Position numbers and translations under genes: made by a program. Below, piece after piece: positions 1,453-27,001 of a stretch of DNA of 64,000 nucleotides. The DNA is from Polycladomyces zharkentensis (GTDB taxonomy: Bacteria > Bacillota > Bacilli > Thermoactinomycetales > JIR-001). The DNA lies in contig NZ_JAFHAP010000017.1 in assembly GCF_016938855.1 (NCBI RefSeq), forward strand, positions 765 through 64,764. Reading direction: 5' to 3'. The notes below the pieces were generated by a model. That model was not told the DNA's origin and searched no databases. It was given only the letters and a program-made list of their open reading frames with translations. Numbering within the stretch: the first letter of the stretch is position 1; each line of letters starts with the position of its first letter.

Positions 1453-1477
1453 TGTTTTTCTCTCCTTTTTATCAAGA

Positions 1478-1752
1478 GTGAGCGGGAAAACCCAACCCTT
1501 TAGGGTTGGAATGAAAGCGAGCGTTGGACGACGATTTGTCATTCTCGCAAATCAGACAGAATGTGGGTGCAATCGAACCGAGGAGTGGGAAAATACTGAA
1601 AACGATTGCACGAGCAAAAACGCGTGAAACGAAAAATCACCTGAACGAAACCATCGTGGATAGATTGGGCTGTCACGTCGGATGAAGCGAGTATCCCACG
1701 GTGACCAAGGGAGTACCTCTCGTGCTTCAGCCGTGTGGGGCAAGTCACGAAT
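1478..1752. mobile_element. 275-bp non-autonomous IS605-type element (MITE/PATE-like)
   Basis: The left part (1480-1531, CGGGAAAACCCAACCC...) matches the left end of the TnpB element at 5530-5575. The right part (about 1643-1748) matches the conserved structured right end found at 6205-6318 and 26905-26999, sharing GATGAAGCGAG, GTGCTTCAGCCGTG and a final CAAGTCAC. No transposase or TnpB frame lies between. It sits just upstream of ylmA and may have displaced its promoter. Confidence 0.6.
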
Positions 1753-5160: not shown

Positions 5161-5523
5161 CACGAAAATACTTTTTCCTTGTCTCGGTTTTGAACATTCT
5201 GTTAAACCGATTAAATACATATGAAAGAGTTTACTTTAGATATGGCAGGGAAAGGGGATCACAACAGAGCGAAATGGGCAGCGGCCTTGCACCAAACGTT
5301 CTGCATAGGGAAGATTGTTTTCATGTAGTGATGCTTGGCAGTCTTTTTTCTGTTAGTGATTCATCATGCTGGCCACTATCCGGGATATTCAATCATTTCT
5401 GACCCGCATTGTTCGCGGGCCGGATTTGGTTATAAAATGGAATCAATCCGTATTGTTCGTGGACAAAGTTACAAATATGACAAAATGTTATGTTAACTAC
5501 GACGCGGGTCATATGTTATAAAG
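5161..5523. other. stretch without recognised gene
   Basis: Both strands were read. Open frames here lack ribosome binding sites and protein-like composition. An AT-rich segment around 5450-5510 precedes the IS605-type left end. Confidence 0.4.
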
Positions 5524-5609
5524 AGCGAGCGGGAAAACCCAGCCCTTTAGGGTTGGGATGAAAGCGAGCGTCGGACGCGGGAGGGCTTCAGCCCTCTCGC
5601 AAGTCCGAC
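5524..5609. repeat. left end of TnpB element with two hairpins
   Basis: GCGGGAAAACCCAGCCC with a CCC-TTTA-GGG hairpin (about 5537-5559) matches 1480-1531. The hairpin at 5570-5609 (GTCGGAC against GTCCGAC with an inner GGAGGGC/GCCCTC stem) overlaps the end of the RHH gene and may also terminate it. Confidence 0.6.
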
Positions 5610-5767
5610 AATTTCCCGTATTTCTCAAGGACCATTTTCATTCCTTCCTCGATCAAGCGCCCATACTTCATATCCTTTTCTACTGCCAGCAACTTGATCT
5701 GCTTTAATAAATCAGCATCAACGGTTGTGTGTAATTCAGCACGACCTTCTTTGATTCTTGCCATCAT
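5588..5767 (-). CDS. small ribbon-helix-helix protein divergent from tnpB
   Basis: A 59-residue protein. After MMARIKEGR comes a beta strand (AELHTTVDADLL), then two helices (KQIKLLAVEKDMKYGRLIEEGMKMVLEKY), the layout of Arc/CopG-type DNA-binding proteins. AGAGGTGA precedes tandem ATG codons at 5767 and 5764. It is transcribed away from the tnpB relic across a 90-bp gap holding two TGTCG-type palindromes, which suggests autoregulation. The element at 1-530 has the same divergent layout, so this protein is probably a standard passenger of the element. Confidence 0.65.
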   Translation of the reverse strand: MMARIKEGRAELHTTVDADLLKQIKLLAVEKDMKYGRLIEEGMKMVLEKYGKLSDLREG

Positions 5768-5792
5768 TCATCACCTCTTTCTCATCATATCA

Positions 5793-5840
5793 TGTCGTTG
5801 ACGACCTAATCAAAAATGATATGATGTCGTTAAGCGACAT
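5793..5840. promoter_or_regulatory. paired palindromes between RHH gene and tnpB
   Basis: TGTCGTTGACGAC (5793-5805) and ATGTCGTTAAGCGACAT (5824-5840) lie in the short divergent intergenic region. They look like operator sites for the RHH protein. Binding is inferred. Confidence 0.4.
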
Positions 5841-5857
5841 TAAAGGAGGTGATCATA

Positions 5858-6188
5858 ATGATGAGAACCTACAAATTCAAGCTGGAACCAACAAAAGAGC
5901 AAATCGAGAAGATCGAATGGACACTGGGCATGTGTCGCTGGTTATACAACTCCATGCTTGAACAACGAAAGTTCGCCTACAGAATGGGCCGGTAAGCAAG
6001 TGATGGAAGTGGATCCTCGCCACACGTCACAAGTTTGCTCCAAGTGCGGTCGGATCGTAAAGAAGGCCTTAAAAGAACGTACCCATTGTTGCTCATGCGG
6101 ATATGTGGCAGACAGAGATGTCAATGCCGCAAGAAATATCCTGCATCGAGCGATGGGAACCGTTCTTGAACCGAAATACGTACAATGA
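5858..6188 (+). pseudogene. internally deleted TnpB (N-terminus joined to zinc ribbon)
   Basis: ATG 5858 after AAAGGAGGTG opens MMRTYKFKLEPTKEQIEKIE, the TnpB N-terminus, and the frame stops after about 44 codons. In another frame the C-terminal end follows at once: KQVMEVDPRHTSQVCSKCGR, then CCSCGYVADRDVNAARNI, i.e. the zinc ribbon and last RuvC motif. Roughly the middle 250 to 300 residues of a normal TnpB are missing, so it cannot be an active nuclease. The structured right end follows immediately. Confidence 0.8.
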
Positions 6189-6195
6189 GAATGAA

Positions 6196-6318
6196 ACCTT
6201 TTCCAGGCTTGGACGAAGCCATCGTGGATGGATGTGGGTTGCCACGCCAGATGAAGCGAGAAGCCCACAGCGACCAAAGGGAGTGCCTTAAGTGCTTCAG
6301 CCGTGGGGAGCAAGTCAC
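6196..6318 (+). ncRNA. omega RNA-like right end of TnpB element
   Basis: After the tnpB stop lies a structured segment (GTGGATGGATGTGGGTTGCC ... GTGCTTCAGCCGTGGGG ... CAAGTCAC). In IS605-family elements this region encodes the guide RNA scaffold of TnpB, with the guide lying just past the element end. The same sequence occurs at 1643-1748 and 26905-26999. The fosmidomycin-resistance-type gene starts 23 bp beyond the end. Confidence 0.55.
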
Positions 6319-26889: not shown

Positions 26890-27001
26890 CCTGCTTGACC
26901 CCTTCGTGGATGGATGTGGGTTGCCACACCGGATGAAGCGAGAAGCCCACGGCGACCGAAGGGAGTGCCTCCGGTGCTTCAGCCGTGCGGAGCAAGTCAC
27001 G
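26890..27001 (+). ncRNA. solitary omega RNA-like element end
   Basis: GTGGATGGATGTGGGTTGCC... GATGAAGCGAGAAGCCCACGGCGACC... GTGCTTCAGCCGTGC... CAAGTCAC is about 90 percent identical by eye to the TnpB right end at 6205-6318. No tnpB and no left end lie nearby. It fills the gap between dgoD and the permease gene, whose ribosome binding site comes 15 bp after the end, so the would-be guide is the permease leader. Confidence 0.5.

Follow-up and report, generated by a model that had tools for sequence, protein, structure and literature searches.

A divergent ribbon-helix-helix gene with family-specific promoter sites as a probable element-encoded regulator of tnpB in IS1341-type transposons

How is tnpB expression controlled in elements that lack a transposase gene? 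The locus described here bears on this question. The window, that is the whole stretch of 64,000 nucleotides analysed, belongs to C17, a contig in a genome of 3.3 Mb, and contains an IS200/IS605-type element at about 5519-6318, in which an earlier note had seen a ribbon-helix-helix (RHH) gene divergent from tnpB and had suggested that it encodes a repressor of TnpB expression. Upstream regions of loci from genomes of the same order are identical to those of records named Marinithermofilum, Thermoflavimicrobium and Hazenella, so that the order is the one to which the Thermoactinomycetaceae belong. The element is of the IS1341 type, without tnpA, and reads left end (LE), rhh in reverse orientation, candidate operators and promoters, tnpB and right end (RE). 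The LE (5519-5610, plus strand, outer boundary approximate) consists of a terminal hairpin and a subterminal hairpin at 5570-5609, the latter with a fold z of -3.68. The tnpB of this element is an internal-deletion remnant on the plus strand: the N-terminal part, of type A (5858-5995, from the open frame and Pfam), and the C-terminal TNB/zinc-finger part (5958-6188, PF07282, E=2.4e-20) are kept, while the middle portion is gone. The N-terminal helix-turn-helix is recognized at 5849-5995 (PF12323, E=9.6e-15). The RE (6186-6318, plus strand), recognized by its match in other copies and ending near CAAGTCAC with an approximate boundary, contains a guide-RNA-like 3' region that we take, from IS605 biology, to act as omega/re-RNA.

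The gene itself occupies 5588-5767 on the minus strand, starts with ATG and encodes 59 amino acids (family r59), and its assignment to the RHH (CopG/Arc) superfamily follows from sequence profiles. The protein matches Pfam Antitox_RHH (E=1.4e-5; 25.6 bits, slightly below the cut-off of 27.2), shows CopG_antitoxin similarity in Pfam and matches PHROG 3180 'Arc-like repressor' (E=1.2e-5), so that the earlier reading of a 59-codon RHH frame divergent from tnpB is borne out. Eight of 14 RHH proteins from such elements match Pfam RHH_3 (best E=1.6e-15), eight of the 14 match the PHROG Arc-like repressor, and a profile built from all 14 recovers 56B (E=3e-8) and CopG (E=6e-4) among PDB sequences. 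The proteins compared have 44-69 amino acids, little beyond the RHH domain. In an AF2 monomer model from three sequences, helices at 18-30 and 35-58 fit the fold, and a helix is modelled where the ribbon strand is expected; with this monomer model, RHH proteins rank top in Foldseek, with weak matches (E of 0.6 and up). The gene is under purifying selection: dN/dS is 0.05 between the window copy and that on contig C2, and 0.04-0.15 in the four of eight RHH pairs for which dS could be computed, two of these four being near saturation (dS 1.8 and 3.7). The 3' end of the gene is built into the element. The last six codons of r59, and likewise of the related r50, spell SDLREG and supply one arm to the subterminal hairpin of the LE (5570-5609 in the window), with the stop codon in the loop, as the earlier note had observed for the overlap of gene end and hairpin. 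By eye, the RHH gene of an element in Geobacillus virus E3 also ends in a small hairpin, despite a differing sequence. Between C21 and G015 (L005, L142) the RHH dS is 0.11, far below the tnpB dS of 0.60, for which either double constraint or local recombination might account.

Three whole copies of the r59 gene are found in the genome, on C17 (the window), C20 and C2, together with fragments on C8. The C20 copy has a truncated tnpB and the C2 copy is a complete element with full-length tnpB ('type A'). Contig C21 carries a tnpB of a different type ('type B', 376 codons), whose own divergent RHH gene has 50 codons (r50) and is 40% identical to r59. The tnpB open reading frames of C2 and C21 are full length, and no tnpA was found within 700 bp upstream of either; an HTH_OrfB and TNB tnpB between LE and RE hairpins, complete in C2 and a remnant in the window, assigns the element to IS1341-type IS200/IS605. 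Positions 5510-5860 have at least 41 matches in the own genome, at least 38 of them not spanning the whole rhh gene, both counts being lower bounds since 40 of 90 candidates were scored. The window holds a second RHH gene, which bears out the claim that such a gene occurs in both TnpB elements: it lies at 351-527 on the plus strand and adjoins a minus-strand type-B tnpB remnant. However, it belongs to another family (rC) and gives no Pfam match, and comparison with C19, where an intact rC gene is present, identifies positions 1-553 as a deletion remnant that has lost the start codons and the promoter of the C19 copy (L225).

The argument for regulation starts from the 90 bp between rhh and tnpB. 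A consensus scan predicts an rhh promoter at 5784-5813 on the minus strand (TTGATT-18-TATGAT) and a tnpB promoter at 5798-5825 on the plus strand (TTGACG-16-TATGAT, with TG ahead of the -10), the latter agreeing with the consensus at 10 of 12 positions; the scan returned three promoter-like sites against 0.9 +/- 0.9 in shuffles. Both intergenic sites that the earlier note had quoted are present, TGTCGTTGACGAC at 5793-5805 and ATGTCGTTAAGCGACAT at 5824-5840. They correspond to two candidate operators. O1 (ATGTCGTTGACGACCT, 5792-5807) lies on the predicted tnpB -35 and within the spacer of the predicted rhh promoter, and its first 14 bases do not vary among the five elements whose r59 gene is intact. 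O2 (ATGTCGTTAAGCGACAT) shares its first two bases with the end of the predicted -10 and has its counterpart in the second copy found in two viral elements, as a perfect ATGTCGTTGACGACAT in contig L323 and as ATGTCGTTAGAGACAT in E3. Exact matches to O1 in the own genome are confined to C2, C17 and C20, which are also the sole places at zero or one mismatch. A host regulon was considered and rejected: there is no operator outside the element at zero or one mismatch, and matches with two mismatches are at background (14 in total against 15 for the reversed pattern).

Taken alone, a single intergenic region says little. Inverted repeats are at chance level in each r59 copy (p=0.32 in the window, 0.72 in C20 and 0.19 in C2). 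Among 17 regions tested, p fell below 0.05 in three for inverted and in four for direct repeats, with r59 in neither group, and k-mer recurrence within single regions was likewise mostly not significant. Such repeats are mostly at chance and were thus not taken as proof of operators. By sequence, isolated palindromes are not above chance, whereas the comparative evidence for the candidate sites exceeds it.

This comparative evidence comes from elements in which RHH family and tnpB type are combined differently. The r59 family is also found in Geobacillus virus E3 (KP144388), as a 'hypothetical protein' adjoining an 'ORFB IS605-like transposase', and in the viral contig L323. The tnpB of L323 is of type A (77% identical), while that of E3 is of type B, 77-78% identical to C21 and 40-41% to type A (40% to C2). 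Two ATGTCGTT sites, 32-33 bp apart, are present in every element whose r59 gene is intact, five in total (C17, C20, C2, E3/L291 and L323); these represent three lineages, C17, C20 and C2 being near-copies, and the E3 element occurs at a second site as well (L290). The two sites of L323 each have the perfectly palindromic form ATGTCGTTGACGACAT. Between the three lineages the RHH genes are 62-72% identical in DNA, and dS is not computable or 2.7 (C2/L323), hence saturated or nearly so. A frameshifted r59 copy (G016:C42) has neither ATGTCGTT site. The intergenic region of E3 matches those of C2 and C17 better than any of 300 shuffles in each comparison (p=0.0033); its match to C21, which has the different RHH r50, is at chance (p=0.40) despite the 77-78% identical tnpB, and C21 bears different boxes. 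All three elements whose r50 gene is intact contain TACGTNTTTACGTA, and TACGTNTTTACGTATATNAT lies across their predicted tnpB promoter; three decayed r50 copies of G032 are without an exact TACGT box. Relatives of r50 in viral contigs have ACGTNTATACGTAGTATAAT upstream of the gene in 10 of 12 loci (six distinct upstream regions), on promoter-like sequence toward the divergent neighbour, and no tnpB lies within the stretches retrieved. Among the last 130 bp of 113 distinct tnpB upstream regions, ATGTCGTT occurs in one, the RHH-bearing C2, and TACGTNTTTACGTA in three, every one RHH-bearing; neither motif occurs in an RHH-less region of this set. In 20 pairs of intergenic regions, p was 0.05 or lower in four of the ten taken as RHH-related and in none of the other ten (lowest 0.080). 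The strongest pair, G213/G027, has the exact 16-mer TATATACTAAGTATAT in common (0 of 200 shuffles, p=0.005); the RHH proteins are 51% identical, and of the G027 tnpB 39 codons remain, which show no meaningful similarity. Several RHH-related pairs have no significant common box, namely Atol/G273 (p=0.13 with RHH 74% identical), Atol/Sulf (0.52), G093/G027 (0.17), G034/L143 (0.27) and L305 against C21 (0.34). In sequence comparison the candidate operator pair is shown to be conserved and linked to the RHH family, and not to tnpB.

Divergent pairs of RHH gene and tnpB are a patchy minority. Seven of the 113 tnpB upstream regions, from which duplicates had been removed by the last 300 bases, have a clear divergent RHH gene, one of them frameshifted, and one more has a weak, decayed match (E=0.019); all seven clear matches lie on the strand opposite tnpB. 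In a phylum-wide search that matched 61 of 249 genomes, RHH was absent at 28 of the 29 TnpB loci outside the own genome among the matches listed (30 loci with the own C21 included), the remaining one being decayed (G076, E=0.05). In a tree of 117 distinct TnpBs, built quickly and without bootstrap, ten rows bear an RHH gene, four of which (L207, L224, L237, L238) came from RHH searches, and the RHH label requires at least nine changes; on 60 grouped rows the minimum is eight, seven of them forced by well-supported branches. The RHH families differ in how closely they keep to tnpB. With r50 as query, six places were found in 4 of 398 genomes of the class, all adjoining a type-B tnpB. The rC query gave 13 places in 6 of the 398 genomes, seven of which adjoin tnpB as found by type A and B queries, and an additional one (L229) adjoins a type-C remnant by eye. 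An Alicyclobacillus-type RHH gave seven places in six of the 398, one adjoining tnpB by the same queries. The profile of 14 element RHHs matches in 120 of 250 genomes, and TnpB is found at only three of 28 new loci examined, which indicates that most RHH genes of this broad kind occur independently of tnpB. On plasmids, two rC-type queries matched four and six records, all from Priestia or Jeotgalibacillus and below 60% identity, and the E3-type RHH had no plasmid match. Among 31 viral loci with type-B relatives, a divergent RHH gene lies within 260 bp in four, among them one element present at two sites and one weak match, and tnpA is present in ten. Two of the 31 (L303, L309) have an RHH-like frame just upstream of tnpB on the same strand, unlike the divergent layout.

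The earlier note had allowed that absence of the RHH gene from complete elements of the same subfamily would speak against its proposal. Taken literally, such elements exist: G016:C45 (TnpB 94% identical) and G010 (85% identical, with an upstream region identical to that of Marinithermofilum L057) are complete and have neither RHH nor sites, the LE reaching tnpB through about 100 bp free of these sites in G016:C45 and in G010/Marinithermofilum. The gene is hence not a fixed partner of tnpB but an optional, movable module. Since the RHH-less relatives lack the sites too, they speak for gain or loss of this module and do not refute regulation, and a divergent-promoter regulator encoded by the element is well supported by comparison.

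Two alternatives deserve most attention, and we give both the same small chance. The RHH gene and its own operator might be hitchhiking cargo, brought by recombination and functionless for the element. RHH relatives away from tnpB, in genomes and in viral contigs, and the patchy distribution fit with this idea; however, the orientation opposite tnpB in seven of seven clear cases (against the same-strand frames in two viral loci), the purifying selection on RHH and the persistence of the sites over saturated divergence argue against it. Alternatively, the protein might be a structural accessory on transposon ends or relaxosome-like sites, aiding or limiting transposition with secondary effects on tnpB. 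A gene that is built into the LE and ends within its hairpin points in this direction, as does the operon of rhh and tnpA in L207, but it is the promoter region that holds the conserved sites specific to each family, similar LE sequences are found whether or not a copy has an RHH gene and whichever RHH family it has, and in nine of the ten TnpB rows with RHH the 750 bp upstream contain no tnpA. Co-occurrence of RHH with tnpA, one of 10 against 50 of 107 (Fisher p=0.041), gives a hint of exclusivity, because the rows are not independent and four of the ten came from RHH searches. In L207 (1109-3054) the rhh stop overlaps the tnpA start on one strand and both genes diverge from a distant tnpB; this is a possible three-gene IS605 with RHH first in the transposase operon. 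A slimmer chance is left for an activator or dual switch of tnpB: position by itself does not prove the sign of an effect, but sites that overlap the -35 and the -10 region are typical of repression, as for CopG and Arc. Least probable is a type II antitoxin that neutralizes TnpB or its guide complex as toxin-like partner by protein contact, since, for all the Pfam similarity to Antitox_RHH and CopG_antitoxin, the proteins have no obvious toxin-binding tail beyond the RHH domain, r59 is paired with two tnpB types, and rhh reads outward into the LE with no co-directional partner within the element.

The reading that we prefer, and hold to be probable on the comparative sequence evidence, is that captured modules of RHH autorepressor and operator place tnpB under element-encoded control. 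The element would probably keep its own RNA-guided cutting enzyme, TnpB, in check by means of the RHH gene and matching promoter sites. We infer DNA binding, dimerization, repression rather than activation and the promoter positions. An RHH homodimer would bind the two operators that contain ATGTCGTT, about three helical turns apart, and dimers on O1 and O2 may keep RNA polymerase from the tnpB promoter, as the position of the sites and the behaviour of CopG and Arc suggest; O1 lies within the spacer of the predicted rhh promoter, which points to autorepression. RHH gene and operators would move together as a module, and several tnpB lineages appear to have captured various RHH families, of which at least three have boxes of their own. 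The window copy retains rhh and the operators but not tnpB, hence it could repress the intact C2 element in trans. This leads to a bolder idea, for which we see a limited chance: TnpB-only transposons might repeatedly capture phage-type RHH repressor-operator modules as a zygotic-induction switch, with deletion copies holding full copies in check. Upon entry into a repressor-free cell a burst of tnpB transcription would allow cutting at guide-matched sites, until RHH builds up and silences tnpB, and deletion copies like that of the window would be repressor-only elements that restrain full copies.

Both components of this arrangement have known counterparts. Like CopG/Arc-type RHH autorepressors (RHH_1, RHH_3, Antitox_RHH, PHROG 3180), the protein is small, and palindromic or tandem boxes lie upstream of its gene; in contrast to these, the present gene lies inside an insertion sequence, and its operator region is common to tnpB. 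With the usual IS1341-type (tnpB-only) IS200/IS605 elements it shares LE and RE hairpins, an HTH_OrfB and TNB tnpB and the lack of tnpA, but it carries, in addition, a divergent rhh gene, the end of which forms part of the LE. A second gene adjoining the tnpB start is also found in IS605 elements with tnpA and tnpB; however, tnpA of the relatives lies upstream and in the same direction as tnpB, L207 with rhh-tnpA divergent from tnpB being a mixed case. TldR proteins are RNA-guided repressors derived from TnpB. They resemble our proposal in linking repression to TnpB, as far as the excerpts of PMC13418256 go, but there TldR is itself the repressor, whereas in our proposal tnpB is repressed by an RHH protein distinct from TnpB. 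The excerpts of PMC8987985 and PMC9956272 describe no such RHH gene beside tnpB, and a divergent rhh was not found in the portions searched of the literature on TnpB or IS605 with RHH or CopG, which is not to claim its absence from print. RHH autorepressors are familiar, and so are elements with tnpB alone; their combination was not found within the literature searched. With a separate repressor that is encoded by the element and acts on defined operators, tnpB control would become testable; such a repressor would also provide TnpB tools with pairs of repressor and operator matched by family, and would connect transposon nucleases with phage-like repressor control.

Some further observations concern the surroundings of these elements. 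The E3 element (L339, 103036-108197) is part of a phage genome of 141 kb and has an integrase-like gene and a putative gene for DNA sulfur modification in its vicinity. There are also MITE-like short LE-RE elements (window 1474-1748; L027-L056), the RE following within 150 bp of the LE in 19 of 30 LE loci examined, and one of the short elements, L038, retains a scrap of TnpB. Each MITE-like element has a guide-RNA-like RE and might thus supply TnpB guides in trans. At 26901-27000 the window contains a copy of the right end of the element only, 91% identical over 100 bp.
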